Notes under the pieces: generated by a model
Seen by the model: only the letters and a program-made list of their open reading frames with translations
What the model was told of the DNA's origin: nothing
Databases searched by the model: none
Assembly: GCF_900187295.1 (NCBI RefSeq)
Contig: NZ_LT906473.1
Location: forward strand, 372,001 to 436,000
Reading direction: 5' to 3'
Length of the DNA: 64,000 nt
From: Corynebacterium cystitidis
GTDB lineage: Bacteria > Actinomycetota > Actinomycetes > Mycobacteriales > Mycobacteriaceae
Translations under genes and position numbers: made by a program
Shown here: positions 48,496 to 64,000 of the stretch, in pieces
Layout of the letters: every line of letters starts with the position of its first letter
Position numbering within the stretch: position 1 is the first letter of the stretch

Positions 48496-51084
48496 TTAAG
48501 CGTCGAAGCGGCGTAACGCATTGCCTAACTCCGAGCGGTTGCGTACGCCAAGCTTCCGGTACACACGCGTCAGGTGATACTCCACCGTCTTCGGCGACAA
48601 AAACAGAGCCGTAGCCACATCTTTATTGGAGCTACCCTCAGCAACGAGGGTAGCTATTTCCTTTTCCTGCGGGGTCAGCCCCTGTTCCGAAGGGATGCGG
48701 GAACCAAGACCTCCAGCGCGGCGTTCTCTCCCACACCGGGCGACCATATTATCGGCCCCCATCGCCAGGAAGTACTCGCTGGCCCTGGCGAAGAGATCGT
48801 CGGCAAGCTTCCTTTTACCTAAACGGCGCAGCGCCTGGCCATAATCGAAAAGAACACGGGCAGAATACAGCGGCAGCGAGAGCGTCTCAATCATGTCCAA
48901 AGCCTCATCAAATTTTGCCACCCCGGTCTGGTGCTGCCCCCGGGCAAACGCGAGACGCCCTTCCGACATAGACAGTTTGGCTTGAGCTGACACCACCGGA
49001 GCAGACCGGATACGATCGCCGACCTGACCGATGAGCGCTTCGGCCTCATCGAGTTGACCACTGTTGACCAGGTGTGATGCCCAAATATCGCGCCACGGCC
49101 AAAAACCAGGTTGAGCGGTATCCACCGTGTCACTGAGGTTGCTAAGAAAAGTCCCGGCGCGTTGCATAGCAGCTGAATCCTGCTGAGAGTACGCGATATA
49201 GAGTCGCGCCATCGCAGAAGGGATTTGCTGAATGGGAAAAGCATCATTGCTTAGATTAACTTGCCTGCTGTATAGCGACATCAAGGACTGGTCTCCGCGT
49301 AATCCAGCCACAACGCTGGCGCTCCACAGCAGCAAAGGCTCTAAGAAACTAATACCGTAGCGTTCGCACCGGGCCAAACCCCGCTCTACTGCATTCTCGG
49401 CGTTGATGAGATCGCCCAACAGCAGGTAGGAGCGGGCACGCCACGCGTCCATCCAGGCCGCGATCCGCTCAGAGCCCTTTCCGTGGGCGTCGACGGAAAG
49501 ATGCTGCCGTGCAGCGAAAGGATTATCGTGAACTAAATAAATCCAGCCGGCCGCCATGTGTCTGCGTTGCGCCATCGTTTCCGTTTCCCAGGCAAGGGGC
49601 GTCAAGTCGGGGATTTCATCGGTGCAGGCAGCAGTGCCAATTAAAGAAATGTAATGGGCCTCCGAACCAAGGGGTGATTCTGGCAACGCCCAGTGCGAGG
49701 TGGTCTGTGCCCATCGAACCACCTCAGAAGGTTGCCACTCACACAGGCTGAGAAGCACTTGGCGGCTTGCGGCGCGGGTGCGCAGTTGCGTATCTCCGCT
49801 TTCGGTGCTGTCCAGTTGAGACCATGATCGGTTGATCAGGTTCAGTGCATTACTCCGGTGACCTTGGTGCAGCGCCAGGTAACCACGAATCGAGTCAATG
49901 TGCGCATTAGGGGCAACACTGGTGAGTTGGCGAACATGCTGGTTGGCCTGGGGAATATCGGAATCTGCGATGAGCGCTTCGATCGCATTGAGATTGGCTT
50001 GGTCCTGGATTACGGGGCTTTGAGCAGTAACGGAGGCTTGGTGGTACACCTCGAAGGCTTGGCGCCAGTGCCCTGCGCTGGTGAGTTTTTCTGCGTGCTC
50101 AATCATCTGGCCAGCTAGGTCGTCGTTACCGCTAGACATGCTTTTGGCCCGGTGGAGTAGCGCCTGAGTGCTGTTATCGTGCCGGGTAAACCACTCACTG
50201 GCCTTTTTATGAAAATCACGAATCAACGCTGGCGGAGCCGAAGAACGCGCGACAGCAAGGTCAGTCGGGTGGACAAACGCAATGACACGGCCGCGACCCT
50301 GCGGCACCGACTGTAAAATCCCGCGCTCAATACTGGTAGTAACACCCTCACTACCACCGAGTATCGCAACTAATGCCTCGTAGCTGGATGTGACCGTAGC
50401 TGCTTGGGTGGCGTTAATCAGTACCGTGTTGCCCTGCGCACGCGCTTCGAAGGCCGTGCGCCAACGCCGGGGTACCGGCACGTAGGGGTGGGTGCTGCGC
50501 CAATGATCTTCCGAGGCAGCATCGAGCAAATCCCGAACCAGATCGGCGTTACCGTTGGTCACCTCGAGAATCTTCCAACACACTTCCGGTCGCAGATGCA
50601 CCGCGCGGCGTGACACCGCCATCGCGGCAATATCGCTGCTGCGCAGGGGAGGCAGATTGACCCGAAAATCTGCTAGTAAGTGGAAGTCTTCGTTCACTTC
50701 TGACAAATCGGTCGACCCCACGACAGCCGCAGTGGCCCGTGAAATGCTTTGCGACCACTCCAGTAACGCCCTGAGTGATTCCTGATCGGCCCACTGCACC
50801 TTTTCGACGATCAGCACGACCCGAACCTGGGGTTGATCAAGCTCGGAGAGATCCGCCACCCCAGCTTTTCTACACATGATGTCCACGAGCCAACCAGGGT
50901 CGTGAGCACGCCACGGGAGCGCGGACACCCGCACAAGTGTCCAGGTTTCCAATTCTCTTACGAGGCTGTCTACAGCGGAGTGCGCGTCGGACCCGGAAAT
51001 TGAAATGACCGAACAGCTTCCCGGTGTCAACGAAGTCACGTGAGTATAAATTCTGCGTGACTCATACCGTGCTGAGAAAGCCAT
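48496..51084 (-). CDS. benR: LAL-type LuxR-family regulator, probable BenR
   Basis: An 862-residue regulator: N-terminal ATPase-like domain, helical repeats, C-terminal LuxR HTH (LTPQEKEIATLVAEGSSNKD and LSPKTVEYHLTRVYRKLGV). The P-loop region reads SISGSDAHSAVDSL with no GKT/S, while a Walker-B-like RVVLIVEKVQWADQES remains, so ATP hydrolysis is doubtful. It lies 76 bp after benD on the same strand, the position of BenR in C. glutamicum, so control of benABCD is likely (inference from context). Diverged from the two other LAL proteins here. Confidence 0.82.
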   Translation of the reverse strand: MAFSARYESRRIYTHVTSLTPGSCSVISISGSDAHSAVDSLVRELETWTLVRVSALPWRAHDPGWLVDIMCRKAGVADLSELDQPQVRVVLIVEKVQWADQESLRALLEWSQSISRATAAVVGSTDLSEVNEDFHLLADFRVNLPPLRSSDIAAMAVSRRAVHLRPEVCWKILEVTNGNADLVRDLLDAASEDHWRSTHPYVPVPRRWRTAFEARAQGNTVLINATQAATVTSSYEALVAILGGSEGVTTSIERGILQSVPQGRGRVIAFVHPTDLAVARSSAPPALIRDFHKKASEWFTRHDNSTQALLHRAKSMSSGNDDLAGQMIEHAEKLTSAGHWRQAFEVYHQASVTAQSPVIQDQANLNAIEALIADSDIPQANQHVRQLTSVAPNAHIDSIRGYLALHQGHRSNALNLINRSWSQLDSTESGDTQLRTRAASRQVLLSLCEWQPSEVVRWAQTTSHWALPESPLGSEAHYISLIGTAACTDEIPDLTPLAWETETMAQRRHMAAGWIYLVHDNPFAARQHLSVDAHGKGSERIAAWMDAWRARSYLLLGDLINAENAVERGLARCERYGISFLEPLLLWSASVVAGLRGDQSLMSLYSRQVNLSNDAFPIQQIPSAMARLYIAYSQQDSAAMQRAGTFLSNLSDTVDTAQPGFWPWRDIWASHLVNSGQLDEAEALIGQVGDRIRSAPVVSAQAKLSMSEGRLAFARGQHQTGVAKFDEALDMIETLSLPLYSARVLFDYGQALRRLGKRKLADDLFARASEYFLAMGADNMVARCGRERRAGGLGSRIPSEQGLTPQEKEIATLVAEGSSNKDVATALFLSPKTVEYHLTRVYRKLGVRNRSELGNALRRFDA

Positions 51085-51160: not shown

Positions 51161-52000
51161 CTAGCCTTGATCACCTCCAGCCACAGGGAGCACGGACCCG
51201 GTGATGTAGCTGGCTTCCCGCGAAGCGAGGAACGCGATCGGCCCAGCTTGCTCTTCAAGAGTGCCATAGCGTTTAAACTCCGAGGACTCCACAGTTTGCT
51301 CCACAATTTGCTGGTACCATTGCTTTTCCTGCTGATCTTCAGGGCCTGGCCCGCGCTTGACCACACGCTCCGGGGCTTCTGTTCCCCCAGGCGCGGTGGC
51401 AACAACACGGATATTCTTTTCGGCAGCTTCCTTGGCTAATGCCGCAGTGATAGCATTCACGCCTCCCTTAGCCGCCGCATAGGGCACGCGGTTGACACCG
51501 CGCGTGGCCACCGACGAAACATTGACGATGGTGCCCCCACCGTTATCAATCAGCGCTGGCAGTTCCGCTCGTACCGACCACAGCGTGGTAAACAGTGATC
51601 GGTGGATCTCCTTTTCAATTTCTTCCGGGGTGTAGTGCTCAAATGGTTTCGCCCAAATAGTTCCGCCGACGTTATTGATCGCTACATCAATGCGCCCGAA
51701 CTCAGCCACCGCCTGCTCAACCATGCGGGCGGCCCCTTCGTACGTTTCCAGGTCAGTGGCGCACGATTGCACTTTCATCCCAGTCCGCTCAGATAGTGTT
51801 GCCGCCACATCGCTAACAAGTTCGGACCTATCGACGATCAATAGGCTGCCACCCTCATGTGCGATGCGGTTGGCCACAGCTAAACCAATTCCTTGGACTG
51901 CGCCCGTAATCAGCACCACCTGGCCGGAAAACCGGTGTGGGGTGAATACGGTTGGAGTCTCAGCAACTCCATCTCCTGTGGGCATTTCGCCGAAAGCCAT
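51161..52000 (-). CDS. benD: Benzoate diol dehydrogenase (SDR)
   Basis: A 279-residue short-chain dehydrogenase: cofactor motif TGAVQGIGLAVA, VINNVGG-type NAG motif (DVAINNVGGTI), catalytic Ser in NVSSVATRG and YAAAKGG (Tyr-x-x-x-Lys). The Asp in LLIVDRSE indicates NAD. It oxidises the dihydrodiol from BenABC to catechol with loss of CO2. The ATG overlaps the benC stop by one base. It ends just before a strong hairpin. Confidence 0.93.
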   Translation of the reverse strand: MAFGEMPTGDGVAETPTVFTPHRFSGQVVLITGAVQGIGLAVANRIAHEGGSLLIVDRSELVSDVAATLSERTGMKVQSCATDLETYEGAARMVEQAVAEFGRIDVAINNVGGTIWAKPFEHYTPEEIEKEIHRSLFTTLWSVRAELPALIDNGGGTIVNVSSVATRGVNRVPYAAAKGGVNAITAALAKEAAEKNIRVVATAPGGTEAPERVVKRGPGPEDQQEKQWYQQIVEQTVESSEFKRYGTLEEQAGPIAFLASREASYITGSVLPVAGGDQG

Positions 52001-53604
52001 TATTTGTCACCTTCTTCGATAGCGCGGTGAACAGTAGCAATGGCGCTACGGTGGTGCTTTTCGACGATTGCCCGGCACGCTTGAAAGTCTTTCGCTTCCA
52101 AGGCGTCGACAAGCTCAAAGTGATCTTGTTCTATACCGTCAACCACAAAGCCTTCGTCGTCAAGCACCTCGTTCATGACTTCTACAACATCGAGGACGTT
52201 ATAAGCCTGCTTCATCGCGTCATTACCTGAGCGGTCAAAGAGGTAGTTGTGGTACTGCGCATTGGCAGCCGTGTAGCCAGTGGCGTCAAGGAATTTGGTG
52301 TCCGAGATAAATTCCTTGCAGGCCTGGGCGAGTTGACGCATCTCGGCGTAATCTTCTTCGTCCAATTGGTCGATCATCAACGTGATTACTCCGAGTTCCA
52401 ACGCCATGAGGGCGTTGAACTGTGCTTCGGAGTCAGTCTTGGCAGTCAAAATATGCCCTGTTTCCACATCACCTTGAGACGTGATGGTCTTTGATAGGCC
52501 ATCTTCTACACTTGCAACCGTTGTAGCCTGTGTGACATCCGTTGCTGGTGCTTCGTCGATACGCGAATCTTCCGGAGTGTCGGACGTAGCCGGCACATTC
52601 GGCGTGAATTTTTCGTAGTAGAAGTTCTGTGGCGGAGCATCAAGGTCGCGGAAGAAAGTGCGGACTGCCTCGACCATTGCCGGTGGGCCGCACAAGTACA
52701 CGTCAACATCGCCGCCGTGCAGGTATTCCTCGGCGATATGGTCCGTGACGTACCCAGTACGGTCGTGCTCTTCTCCCTCGCCGGAGACGACTGAGAACCA
52801 ATCAAAATCCGCCAAGATGTCCTTGTACTGATTCAGGCGGTCTACTTCCACGATGTCGTGATTGAATGTTGCGCCGTAGATCAGACGAACAGGTTGGGTG
52901 AGGTCAGGGTCTTCGGCGAGCTTTTCCAAGATCGCAAGAATGGGGGCCAGACCAGTTCCACCTGCCAGCAACAGGATCGGGGAAAAGGGCTCACGGAGGA
53001 AGAAGGACCCCATGGGGCCGGTGAGGTTCAACCGGTCACCAACTTTGGCTTCCTCCGTGAGGTAGGTGGACATTTTGCCGCCTGGTGTGTTTTTCACAAG
53101 GAAGGTCACGATGTCGTCGCTGGGACCTGAAGAGAAGGAATATGACCGATGAAAATCAGCGTTCGGGGGTGCAATATTCATGTATTGGCCTGGAAGATAA
53201 TACAGCTGGTCGCGATCTTCGATATGCACGGCAAACTTGATCGTTGACTTAGAAAGCTGCTCGAGTTCGACGATGTGACCAATCATCGTGCCAGCCCCAG
53301 TTTTTGCTGCAGCCGATGTCGTGGCGATATTAACCACCATGTCATCGATTGGGTATGTCTGGCAGCACAGAATATAGCCTTCATCAGCTTCGTCTTCTGT
53401 CAGCGCATCATCAATGTAGTCGCCTTCCTCGTATTCTCCTGATTCGCAGAAAGCTTTACACGTTCCGCACGCGCCGTCACGGCAATCGAATGGAATATTA
53501 ATTCGCGCCTTATAAGCTGCGTCAGTGATGGTTTGGTCTTCCTCGATTTCAATGAAACGGGTAACACCATCTTCAAAAGCTAACGCTACTTGCGGTTGGG
53601 CCAT
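52000..53604 (-). CDS. benC: Benzoate dioxygenase reductase fused to an FCD-like domain
   Basis: 534 residues. A plant-type [2Fe-2S] ferredoxin domain (Cys41, 46, 49 and 80/81), then FAD-binding (YSFSSGPSDD) and NAD-binding (LLLAGGTGLAPI) domains up to about residue 340. Pseudomonas BenC (about 336 residues) ends here. A linker leads to an extra all-helical domain (about 395-525) that looks like the FCD effector domain of GntR regulators: NAQYH (His452), EQDHFELVDALEAKDF and AIVEKHHRS give the three histidines of its metal site. So the electron-transfer protein may sense a ligand or metal. Confidence 0.9.
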   Translation of the reverse strand: MAQPQVALAFEDGVTRFIEIEEDQTITDAAYKARINIPFDCRDGACGTCKAFCESGEYEEGDYIDDALTEDEADEGYILCCQTYPIDDMVVNIATTSAAAKTGAGTMIGHIVELEQLSKSTIKFAVHIEDRDQLYYLPGQYMNIAPPNADFHRSYSFSSGPSDDIVTFLVKNTPGGKMSTYLTEEAKVGDRLNLTGPMGSFFLREPFSPILLLAGGTGLAPILAILEKLAEDPDLTQPVRLIYGATFNHDIVEVDRLNQYKDILADFDWFSVVSGEGEEHDRTGYVTDHIAEEYLHGGDVDVYLCGPPAMVEAVRTFFRDLDAPPQNFYYEKFTPNVPATSDTPEDSRIDEAPATDVTQATTVASVEDGLSKTITSQGDVETGHILTAKTDSEAQFNALMALELGVITLMIDQLDEEDYAEMRQLAQACKEFISDTKFLDATGYTAANAQYHNYLFDRSGNDAMKQAYNVLDVVEVMNEVLDDEGFVVDGIEQDHFELVDALEAKDFQACRAIVEKHHRSAIATVHRAIEEGDK

Positions 53605-53703: not shown

Positions 53704-54198
53704 CTAGAGCATGTAGACATCCACCACGTGGTGGATATAGTCGTTCTTCAACACGACCTTCTTCTTCACAATCTGTGGCTTCTCACCGGAAAAATCGATG
53801 GTTACCCAGGTTGTTCCGAAGTAGTGGTCGGTGGTGTTGTAGCGGAAATAGTAGGAAATCCAGTTGTAGCGGACATCGACCTGCTGGTCGCGGCGCTCAA
53901 GAATTTCCAGATTTGTCAGATTATGGCCGGTTCGTGGCTCCGGGATTGATGTTGCAGCTGAGCGCTCTGTACGGATGCGGAAAACGCGGTCCTCCATGCC
54001 GGCACGAGTGGGGTAGTAGATCAAAGAGATCTCCGACTGCGGGTCGGTGGTGAGCTCGTCATTGACATCCCAAGAAGGCATCCAGTACTCAGCATCGGGG
54101 TGGTAGCACTCGAGCCACTGTTCGAATTCGCGATCATCAAGAAGGCGGTTTTCGTAGTGCAAAAAGTCGAGGATGCTGTCGCGGGTGATTTCAGACAT
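53704..54198 (-). CDS. benB: Benzoate 1,2-dioxygenase small subunit
   Basis: A 164-residue ring-hydroxylating dioxygenase beta subunit (NTF2-like fold). Marks are LDFLHYENRLLDDREFEQW and YHPDAEYWMPSWDVND near the start, and RTERSAATSIPEPRT in the middle. It has a structural role in the alpha3beta3 oxygenase. ATG 54198 has AAAGGA 8 nt upstream; the frame to 54255 is not used. It lies 75 bp after benA and 99 bp before benC. Confidence 0.94.
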   Translation of the reverse strand: MSEITRDSILDFLHYENRLLDDREFEQWLECYHPDAEYWMPSWDVNDELTTDPQSEISLIYYPTRAGMEDRVFRIRTERSAATSIPEPRTGHNLTNLEILERRDQQVDVRYNWISYYFRYNTTDHYFGTTWVTIDFSGEKPQIVKKKVVLKNDYIHHVVDVYML

Positions 54199-54273
54199 GA
54201 GTGAAGTCCTTTGCAGAAATGTGAGAGAGTGAGTCGTATCGTGCAGCTCAACCAACCTGGCTGAGCGCGGTCT

Positions 54274-55797
54274 TTACTGCTTGCGCTTGCGTCGAACACG
54301 ACGGCCAGACGAGCTGACCTCAGCATCCGCTGACTTGTTCGCAGAGGCCTCCGCTTTCTTCGCGGCGCGCTGCTGAGCGTGCTCGGTAGTAACCTTTGTC
54401 GCTTGTGCGTCGTTACGTACGTTCTTTGACGTGCGCTCCTGGCTGTCCTTCTCTTCCTGCTCAACGGCCTGCTCGAGGACCTCCTCCCAGTAGGCGTGCT
54501 GAATAGGGTAGAGACCTTCATCTTCAGTCCGCGCACCCGAGCTGAGCACACTATCCATGCCCAAACTTCTTGCCAATTCGCTAGCACCCTCGATTTGGTG
54601 GCCGAGGCCGCGAGTCATGTCATTCCAAGGGAAAGACGTTGCGCGATAGGTTTTCTGGCAGGAGCGGAATTCTTCCAAATCATCAGGGGTTGCCATGCCC
54701 GTCGCGTTAAAGAAGTCCTCGTACTGCCGGATCCGGGCTGCACGGTTTTCCGCCGATTCTCCCTTCGGCGCAATACAGAAAATAGTCACTTCGGTCTTGT
54801 CAACGGAGACTGGCTCAAGGCGACGAATCTGCGTGGAGAACTGGTCCATGATGTACACGTTCGGGTAGAGGCACAGGTTGCGCGAAGCACCCACCATGAA
54901 CGTGCCGCGTTCTTCACCGTGCAGGTCCTTCAGTTCCGCGAGGCGGTCGAAGATCGGGCGGTCTTCTGGGTTTGCCCACTCGGACCACAACATGAGGTGC
55001 CCGTATGGGTAGGAGAAGTAGCCCCCTCCTTGTTCGCCCCACTTGCCTGCGTCCATCGCTTTTGTATCATTGGCAGACTCACCAGTGCTACGACGTGAGG
55101 TAGTAGCGGCATAGTTCCAGTGGACGGAGGAGACGTGGTAACCGTCAGCTCCGTTTTCTGCCTGCAGTTTCCAGTTGCCGTCATAAGTGTAGGTTGATGC
55201 GCCCTTGAGCACTTCCAACCCTTCGGGCGACTGGTCAATGAGCATGTCGAGGATGACCCGGGTGTCACCGAGGAATTCCTCCAGCTCAACAACGTCATCG
55301 TTTAAGGAGCCGAAAAGGAATCCACGATAGGACTCGAACTTTGGAACGCGGCGCAAGTCATGGGAGCCTTCAGTATTGAAGTTATTCGGGTAGGCGCCGT
55401 TCTGTTCGTCTTTTGCTTTGAGGAAAGTTCCATCATTGGAGAATGTCCAACCATGGAATGGGCAAGTCAGTGTGGTGCGGTTGTCTACTTTCCGACGACA
55501 CAGCATTGCGCCACGGTGGGAGCAGGAATTGATCAAGCAATTCAGCTTGCCGTCCTTTGAACGGGTGATCACGACAGGTTGACGGCCAATATTCGTGGTG
55601 AAGTAGTCGCCTACATTGGGTATCTGAGACTCGTGGGCGAGGAAAATCCAATTTCCTTCGAAGATGTACTTCATTTCCAGCTCGAAGATCTCTTCGTCGG
55701 TGAAGATTTCACGATTGAGACGAACGATTCCCTCTTCGGGGCTATTCTCTAGCGCGCGATCAAGAATCTCACGAACATTGTCGGTTGGGGCAGTCAC
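54274..55797 (-). CDS. benA: Benzoate 1,2-dioxygenase large subunit
   Basis: A 507-residue oxygenase alpha subunit. The Rieske [2Fe-2S] site is CSHRGAMLCRR and CPFHGWTF; the mononuclear iron site includes ENGADGYHVSSVHW. It dihydroxylates benzoate to the cis-diol. Start GTG 55797 with AAAGGAG 6 nt upstream; the frame open to 55971 is leader. The last 50 or so residues (about 458-507) form a basic Lys/Arg/Ala tail ending SSGRRVRRKRKQ, which is not part of the usual family. Confidence 0.93.
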   Translation of the reverse strand: MTAPTDNVREILDRALENSPEEGIVRLNREIFTDEEIFELEMKYIFEGNWIFLAHESQIPNVGDYFTTNIGRQPVVITRSKDGKLNCLINSCSHRGAMLCRRKVDNRTTLTCPFHGWTFSNDGTFLKAKDEQNGAYPNNFNTEGSHDLRRVPKFESYRGFLFGSLNDDVVELEEFLGDTRVILDMLIDQSPEGLEVLKGASTYTYDGNWKLQAENGADGYHVSSVHWNYAATTSRRSTGESANDTKAMDAGKWGEQGGGYFSYPYGHLMLWSEWANPEDRPIFDRLAELKDLHGEERGTFMVGASRNLCLYPNVYIMDQFSTQIRRLEPVSVDKTEVTIFCIAPKGESAENRAARIRQYEDFFNATGMATPDDLEEFRSCQKTYRATSFPWNDMTRGLGHQIEGASELARSLGMDSVLSSGARTEDEGLYPIQHAYWEEVLEQAVEQEEKDSQERTSKNVRNDAQATKVTTEHAQQRAAKKAEASANKSADAEVSSSGRRVRRKRKQ

Positions 55798-57270
<1,473 letters not shown>

Positions 57271-62122: not shown

Positions 62123-64000
62123 TTACGACGAATACTTCAGTGCTGCCCCCAGTTCAGGCCTACCTCTAATCCCCAGCTTCTTGTAGATATTGGTCAGATG
62201 GTACTCCACGGTCTTCAACGACAGGGTGAGCTGGAGGGCAATCTCGCGGTTGGTAATGCCGTCGGCCGCCAACCGTGCCACCTGTTCCTCCTGAGCAGTC
62301 AGCCCCAGGCGGCTGTGCACGTGGCCGCCCACACCGCTGAGGCGGCGTCCTTTATTGCACCGCTCCACCATGACATGGGCACCTAACTCTTCAAACAGGG
62401 TGGATGCTCGGCGCAGGATATCGTCGGCACGCGAACGTCGACCAATGCGGCGCAGCGTGATGCCGTACTCGAACAGAACGCGCGTGGCGTAAACAGACAT
62501 GGGGGAGTGCTCGATGGCATCGACGGCATCATCGAAGAGTCGAAGAGCAGGCTCCACCTCACCACGCTGCAACATGATCGTGGCCCGTGGCACTGCAAGA
62601 CGCGCAAACCACGAGACCAAATCAACATCGGCAGTACGCTCCTCCGCAGCGGTTACCACCATGTCTGCCTCATCCAAACGCCCACTGCGCAGCAGAGTCT
62701 GGGCGTAAACATCTTCCCACGGCCAAAACCCAGGCTGGTACGTGTCCGCCCGTTTCGCGGCAGAGGCAAGATCATCCGCCGCACTCACCGCCGAATTCAG
62801 ATCCCACAAGGTCGACGAGACAAACAGGCGTGCCATCGCCGCCGGGATTTGCTGCAAAGCAAACGAGTCACTGCCGGCAGCCGCCCGGTTAACATAGGAC
62901 CGGGCAAGACCTTGATTCCCTTCCATAGACGCAATCGAGGCACCCGTCCACAATAAAAACGGCTCCAGCAAGGCCACGCCGTGCAACTCGCAAGCAGCCA
63001 GCCCACGCTCCACAACTACCTTGGCCTCATCCCATTGGCCAAGCACAAACAGGGTGCGGGCAAGCAACGCGTCGCGCCAGATCCCCACAGAGAGAGCGCC
63101 ACCAGGAACCGGGCGAAGTTGCTCCCGGGCAGAGATCGGATCATCGTCGGCAAGCGCTACCCACCCACTAAACATCTTGAGCCGCTCGCGCGATACCGCA
63201 TGACGAAGTTCCGGGTTACGTTCTGGAAAGGTGCGGTTGATCAACCAGTAGGCGAAAGACCTGTGAATACGCGCCTCCTCGTAGCGCACTGATCCAGGCA
63301 TCGCCAAGCTCATCGTGTGCTGTGAACGCGCAGCCAAACCGCGCGGATTCCAGTTAGCCAACTCAAACATGGATCCGGCTGCAGACTGTTCAAGAGACTT
63401 TGTCACCGGCTCCAGATATGCCTGAGCCTGGTGGCGGTTACCGGTGTACAACGCAATATATCCGGTCAATGTGTCGCGGTGCTCGGCGTTGACAACCCCG
63501 GTGCAATCCTGCAGAAACAACTGCGCAGAACCCAACCCCAGATCGTCGGCATGTGCCTGCGCCTTCGACAGCAAGAGCTTCTCGCGGGCAATCGCAGTGG
63601 TAGCCCGCGGCGGGGTTGGTATAGAAGCCTGGGTAATGGCATTAAAGCGCGGGTCGCGGAAGAACGTCTCCTGCCCCATCTCATTCTTGCGCAGCTGAAC
63701 AATCCCGGCGCTAATCGCCTCCGAAAGATCCTCAGGGACAAGCGGACGGACATAGAGCGCCTCAATCGTCTCCGGCGATAAACCCTGAATGCGCCTGTTG
63801 AATTCGGTGTGCCAACTATCGGGAATGGTCAGGGCGGCGTTGGCCTGGGTCCAGTAATCGCGCGGGGCCACATCCAGCATCTCCGCGACGTAGTCAGGCC
63901 GCCCACGGGTGGCAAAATACAAGTCTTCAAGCAAAAGGGCGGGCAGCTTATGGCCCGTCAGCGCACGGGCAAACTGGTCAGTTTCGGGCAGAGTAAACGG
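62123..64000 (-). CDS. LAL-type LuxR-family regulator, PcaO paralogue (start outside window)
   Basis: At least 625 C-terminal residues; the frame is open to the window edge (PFTLPETDQFARALTGHKLP at the border). Middle helical region and C-terminal LuxR HTH (LTAQEEQVARLAADGITNRE and LSLKTVEYHLTNIYKKLGI). It matches the pcaO product closely over its whole visible length, for example in GWVALADDDPI-SAREQLRPVPGG and YQPGFWPWEDVYAQTLLRSGR, so they arose by duplication. The ATP domain lies outside. It sits upstream of the broken MFS gene on the same strand and may have controlled it. Confidence 0.88.
   Translation of the reverse strand, partial: PFTLPETDQFARALTGHKLPALLLEDLYFATRGRPDYVAEMLDVAPRDYWTQANAALTIPDSWHTEFNRRIQGLSPETIEALYVRPLVPEDLSEAISAGIVQLRKNEMGQETFFRDPRFNAITQASIPTPPRATTAIAREKLLLSKAQAHADDLGLGSAQLFLQDCTGVVNAEHRDTLTGYIALYTGNRHQAQAYLEPVTKSLEQSAAGSMFELANWNPRGLAARSQHTMSLAMPGSVRYEEARIHRSFAYWLINRTFPERNPELRHAVSRERLKMFSGWVALADDDPISAREQLRPVPGGALSVGIWRDALLARTLFVLGQWDEAKVVVERGLAACELHGVALLEPFLLWTGASIASMEGNQGLARSYVNRAAAGSDSFALQQIPAAMARLFVSSTLWDLNSAVSAADDLASAAKRADTYQPGFWPWEDVYAQTLLRSGRLDEADMVVTAAEERTADVDLVSWFARLAVPRATIMLQRGEVEPALRLFDDAVDAIEHSPMSVYATRVLFEYGITLRRIGRRSRADDILRRASTLFEELGAHVMVERCNKGRRLSGVGGHVHSRLGLTAQEEQVARLAADGITNREIALQLTLSLKTVEYHLTNIYKKLGIRGRPELGAALKYSS

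Follow-up and report, generated by a model that had tools for sequence, protein, structure and literature searches.

An FCD domain with an intact metal-site residue set in the benzoate reductase BenC of actinobacteria

FCD domains have otherwise been studied as effector domains of transcription factors, and the locus described here raises the question of what such a domain is doing at the end of BenC, an electron-transfer enzyme. The window (the whole stretch of 64,000 nucleotides of Corynebacterium cystitidis DNA that was analysed) contains a benABCD operon in which benC extends beyond its reductase part (Table 1). An earlier note on this DNA had suggested that the extra part could act as a gate on electron transfer, with benzoate, a metabolite or a metal as the signal. 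We have examined the identity, distribution, history and conserved residues of the domain, and weigh below the roles that these allow.

Table 1. Features of the ben locus, in window coordinates
Feature	Position	Strand	Basis or remark
LuxR-type (LAL) regulator gene adjoining the operon	48496..51084	-	ORF; family read from sequence
benD, cis-diol dehydrogenase (SDR)	51161..52000	-	ORF and sequence
benC	52000..53604	-	ORF, 534 aa: reductase, linker and FCD; NCBIfam BenC equivalog above cut-off
BenC FCD domain, residues 388-533, seven helices	52006..52443	-	Pfam, models, structural matches
T524, matched by spacing to Asn221 of Atu1419, a citrate contact	52033..52035	-	71/71 identical
Presumed metal ligand H517	52054..52056	-	71/71 identical; 22 residues past H495
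Presumed metal ligand H495	52120..52122	-	71/71 identical
Metal-site helix, codons of N448 and H452	52249..52263	-	71/71 identical; by spacing Atu1419 Asn137/His141
L399, taken as the carboxylate-binding Arg position (Atu1419 Arg86)	52408..52410	-	
BenC linker, residues 337-387, predicted disordered	52444..52596	-	
BenC reductase part, residues 5-336 (Fer2, FAD_binding_6, NAD_binding_1)	52597..53592	-	
benB, small oxygenase subunit	53704..54255	-	ORF
benA, large oxygenase subunit	54274..55971	-	ORF as listed; true start may be internal

Identity and setting of the domain

BenC ends in a genuine FCD domain. The Pfam family FCD (PF07729) is matched by residues 397-517 with an E-value of 1.1e-12 (48.9 bits against a curated cut-off of 24.3), and likewise at E <= 0.001 by all 50 rows of our FCD alignment (A3). 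The BenC equivalog NF040810 covers residues 5-336 (467.9 bits, cut-off 430). The earlier note's observation, a reductase that ends near residue 340 and is followed by a linker and an all-helical domain, is confirmed. In a model of full-length BenC the FCD helices run from 388-410 to 507-533, and residues 332-386, the linker region, have a pLDDT below 50. Because the reductase filled the matches in fold searches with this model, the FCD domain was folded alone (pLDDT 91.1); the lone-domain model has the helical FCD fold and matches FCD regulators, including Atu1419 with citrate and DhdR with 2-hydroxyglutarate (L2HG in the title of 9vkn). The structural comparison that the note had proposed thus gives an FCD-like fold. 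A sequence search of PDB chains with the C-terminal 171 residues found nothing credible (best E 0.14); searching with a profile built from 36 FCDs gave NanR at 2.5e-4. The full-length model has a pTM of 0.50 and gives no support for packing of the FCD onto the reductase.

Atu1419 and PS5454 (VanR-type, GntR superfamily) are transcription factors in which the FCD is accompanied by a DNA-binding winged-helix domain, whereas the FCD of the window sits on an electron-transfer enzyme: Pfam identifies Fer2, FAD_binding_6, NAD_binding_1, NAD_binding_6 and FCD in BenC, and no GntR helix-turn-helix or winged-helix domain. The short BenC of Acinetobacter (structure 1krh) and the 336-residue BenC of Pseudomonas putida pWW53 share the reductase domains (48% and 50% identity, respectively), but both end there and have no FCD; BenD of pWW53 is a separate gene.

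The stop codon of benC and the ATG of benD overlap by one base (TAATG; gap -1). The gene order benABCD is conserved across the 38 ben loci compared, in 36 of which the adjoining LuxR-type regulator has a tblastn match. We considered the tight benC-benD junction as a trait specific to FCD-bearing forms and rejected it, as it is also found in FCD-less forms; in this comparison some start calls are plainly wrong (gaps such as -634), BenA is misread in L004, L009, L160 and L185, and the tblastn threshold scores L174, an FCD form identical with L123, as lacking the domain. A second window ORF (62123-63934) has a LuxR-type helix-turn-helix at its end, reads as similar to the adjoining regulator and lies close to transporter-like ORFs. 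Of 20 Corynebacterium loci, 18 (the window, L003, L005-L007, L154-L156, L183, L184 and L186-L193) encode a BenA whose tail carries an Arg/Lys-rich run, for example RRVRRKRKQ or RRRRRTRG; BenA is misread in the other two, L004 and L185. This tail is present whether or not BenC has an FCD, and a link between the two was dropped, since three FCD-less Corynebacterium loci keep it.

Distribution and history

In the order-level sample, 66 of 298 genomes have a match at 1e-40. Thirty of these, that of the window included, have a BenC-type match with an identity of 49% or higher; the other 36 have weaker reductase matches only (30-37% identity). BenC, FCD and BenD are encoded in one frame in 26 of the 30, BenC-FCD is accompanied by a separate BenD in two (the window's genome and G289) and the FCD is missing from two. 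The phylum-level sample (matches in 23 of 396 genomes) added one further FCD form, G305. BenC is found at 1e-60 in 21 of 151 Corynebacterium genomes, with the FCD present in 18 and absent in three, and in 31 of 149 genomes of the G305 family (Micrococcaceae-like), with 19 and 12, respectively. Six proteobacterial BenC proteins examined (L010, L149-L153) have no FCD. Long BenC forms do therefore occur in other actinobacteria, as the earlier note had believed, and natural BenC exists with and without the domain. The survey of domain architecture that it had called for places the FCD between BenC and BenD, fused to both in a large clade; the window does not have the three parts in one frame, its BenC stopping at 52000 beside a separate, overlapping BenD.

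A match to a fused protein occurs in 241 plasmid records, one of which covers at least 80% of it. This is WP_068741130.1 of Tsukamurella tyrosinosolvens, a single CDS of 860 aa called benC that contains reductase, FCD and SDR; no separate benD is annotated beside it in the plasmid stretch shown. A protein database search with the FCD part of a fused form returned 799 proteins at E <= 1e-10. Most of the matches listed (120 of the 799) have reductase, FCD and SDR domains, and the genera named among them include Geodermatophilus, Blastococcus, Pseudonocardia, Prauserella, Saccharopolyspora and Amycolatopsis. A different fusion is seen in L092-L098 (836-845 aa), where a reductase about 36% identical to BenC is followed by a second part that, in the Pfam search of L092, weakly matches FAD-dependent oxidoreductases.

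The architecture has been remarked on in one printed source found: a benC-benD fusion with FCD is stated for one genome, Gordonia alkanivorans YC-RL2, in the available portion of PMC6362181. All three components are shared with the window, but they are fused in Gordonia, and BenC-FCD and BenD are overlapping genes here. That portion of the text holds no analysis of metal site, distribution or mechanism. Partial texts of two further papers list a Rhodococcus benC as an 'FCD domain-containing protein' (PMC11858498) and a Rhodococcus ruber benC as a reductase/dehydrogenase, with benD listed too (PMC6498646). The literature searched on BenC and FCD, which covered few subscription papers, contained no functional study of the domain. 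The earlier note's statement that no study was known to it thus stands for function, but not for the architecture, given the Gordonia report.

A tree of the reductase part (54 of 89 rows plus the window, that is, 55 of 90; midpoint root) groups actinobacterial BenC together (support 100/99) against five proteobacterial rows and leaves the deep actinobacterial branching open. The fused forms are one clade (100/100), which also contains the FCD-less L088 and L089, nested with support of 98/89 and 97/84. In both, BenC ends in one copy of a linker motif (described below) and BenD begins right there, with the sequence that follows the FCD in fused proteins. As judged from these sequences, L088 and L089 represent a clear natural loss of the FCD with both enzymes retained. 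The tails of FCD-less L137, L139, L141, L117 and L118 contain an ETGE- or DTGE-like sequence similar to the segment that precedes the FCD and may point to further losses. Within Corynebacterium, the three rows that lack the FCD are the sister group of those that have it. FCD presence requires five changes on this tree, which does not fix the number of losses. Over 61 rows, with shared ancestry included in the values, FCD distances correlate with those of the reductase (Mantel r 0.81) and of BenD (r 0.66), and none of 1000 shuffles reaches either value.

On the simplest history, the FCD was gained once, no later than in the ancestor of actinobacterial BenC, was fused once to BenD and was lost several times. 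Its source may have been a GntR-type regulator, whose DNA-binding part was left behind when the domain was joined to BenC. The attempt to name the donor regulator was abandoned, as the hits that bear a GntR helix-turn-helix (P0060-P0063, E 5.6e-5 to 1.2e-3) are too distant; this search scored the 7998 candidates sharing most words. One other FCD match occurs in the genome, in an ORF of 294 aa whose sequence looks like that of an ordinary regulator of the GntR type.

Metal site and ligand pocket

The Zn of Atu1419 is held by Asn137, His141, His192 and His214, and its citrate contacts include Arg86, Tyr133 and Asn221 (PMC7797058); the Ni site of PS5454 consists of Asn144, His148, His192 and His214 (PMC7674646; both papers here and below as given in the portions available). 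N448, H452, H495 and H517 of BenC reproduce the spacing of the metal-binding FCD subgroup, which has an Asp or Asn and three His, at N-x3-H and H-x21-H. The interval from H495 to H517 (22) is that of residues 192 and 214 in both regulators; the middle interval, H452 to H495, is 43 residues, compared with 44 in PS5454 and 51 in Atu1419. Conservation was assessed in 71 sequences with an FCD, all of them distinct: 41 split forms, the window's among them, 27 fused forms and three database proteins, four duplicate loci having been removed. Besides the residues marked in Table 1, E403, N461 and Y468 are identical in all 71, and position 444 is Tyr in 47 and Phe in 24. At position 399, 64 sequences have Arg and seven (the window and six relatives) have Leu. 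In alignment A3 position 399 is Arg in 41 rows, Leu in five and Lys in four, and H517 is gapped in one fragment, P0039. Seven positions (399, 444, 448, 452, 495, 517 and 524) were matched to the metal and citrate site of Atu1419, by spacing or alignment rather than by coordinate superposition; five of them are among the 14 invariant positions of 163 columns (hypergeometric P 4e-5, a guide only, since the matching was made with conservation in view).

Most likely, a divalent metal occupies the Asn/His/His/His site of the FCD and serves to bind a small carboxylate, both occupancy and ligand being what we infer from the residues. Family score, fold and conservation together bear out the earlier note's assignment of an FCD with metal-site residues. 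The conservation could also be structural, because metal sites stabilise the fold as well: Atu1419 without its three His has a Tm of 34 C, down from 52.6 C (PMC7797058).

The domain might instead be a functionless relic, retained because it is harmless. Several lineages lack it and at least one loss is clear, its mean identity (0.48) is below that of the reductase (0.61) and of BenD (0.66) over 61 rows, and Arg399 has been replaced in the window clade. A relic would, however, hardly be expected to keep its metal-site residues invariant in 71 distinct sequences or to recur in the database proteins counted above, and we consider this explanation very improbable.

Possible roles

We tentatively favour metal-dependent binding of a diol, either to feed back on the electron supply or to hand the diol over to BenD, and rate it at somewhat under an even chance. 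The first-candidate ligand would be the cis-1,2-diol of benzoate, because the FCD lies between the diol-forming reductase and the diol-oxidising BenD, and because this product of BenABC and substrate of BenD is an alpha-hydroxy-carboxylate, a class of compound already known among FCD ligands. As feedback, diol bound to the FCD would throttle electron delivery by BenC when BenD lags; as hand-over, the FCD would hold the diol close to BenD. Gating and hand-over are both functions that we infer. With the FCD placed between BenC and BenD, and fused to both in a large clade, a role in sensing or handling the cis-diol is no less likely than benzoate gating; the data suggest, but do not prove, that the domain senses or handles a pathway intermediate.

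The earlier note's version, in which benzoate or cellular metal sensed by the FCD opens the reductase, would also account for the conserved metal-site residues, and benzoate is both a carboxylate and the pathway substrate. Citrate and 2-hydroxyglutarate can, however, chelate a metal through the hydroxyl beside the carboxylate, and benzoate has no such hydroxyl. As to metal gating, FadR-family proteins are reported to give up their metal ions with relatively more difficulty than metal-sensing regulators (PMC7674646). We regard gating by benzoate or metal as improbable.

The linkers bear on the main rival to diol binding. They comprise 27-56 residues in 40 split forms (window excluded) and 100-229 residues in 27 fused forms. 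The core [AVCILR]-G-Q occurs 70 times in the fused linkers, where shuffling gives a mean of 5.8 and a maximum of 14 copies (1000 shuffles), and not at all in the 40 split linkers. Single fused linkers contain no copy (one linker), one (three), two (six), three (13) or four (four); the 26 of 27 that bear the motif (L062-L072, L074-L079, L082-L087, L090, L091 and L148) are predicted to be disordered. The commonest letters around the core are A-R-[ASRT]-[VIL]-A-G-Q-x-[MVLI]-[FLW]-P, with the Arg in 57 and the Pro in 38 of the 70 copies. A set of three might, speculatively, fit docking to an oxygenase trimer; no related pattern was found in BenA or BenB read from the motif-bearing loci.

The FCD could accordingly be an assembly module that dimerises BenC (and fused BenD) or docks both to the oxygenase, with a metal that stabilises the fold and no ligand sensed. 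The BenD fusion and the excess of linker motifs look like features of assembly, the C-terminal domain provides most of the listed dimer contacts of Atu1419, a protein that its metal stabilises (PMC7797058), and the Leu at 399 in the window clade fits as well. The invariance of T524, beyond the four metal-site residues, and the Arg399 of 64 of the 71 sequences are not explained by assembly, and we judge this role possible but on balance unlikely. Nor is diol binding free of difficulty. With Leu399 in place of Arg, the window clade may have altered or lost its ligand, and since the FCD is missing from several genomes with BenC, benzoate genes are kept without it; the Leu399 clade and the sizeable fraction of actinobacterial BenC proteins that lack the domain argue against a sensing role that is essential and uniform.

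More broadly, actinobacteria may have recruited a transcription-factor sensor into a catabolic electron chain, in which metal-bound diol would, at the protein level, balance its formation by BenABC against its oxidation by BenD, and fused proteins with about three docking-like motifs would form a self-regulated oxygenase-dehydrogenase assembly; as a whole we hold this to be doubtful. What is found in either case is a recognisable FCD with an intact metal-site residue set inside an enzyme of a well-studied pathway, common to many actinobacteria. Annotation is affected, as the fused proteins among the matches listed carry the name of either BenC or BenD. If the FCD responds to the diol, it would represent direct metabolite control of the electron supply of a Rieske dioxygenase and would matter where actinobacterial ben genes are used to engineer the production of muconate or the diol.
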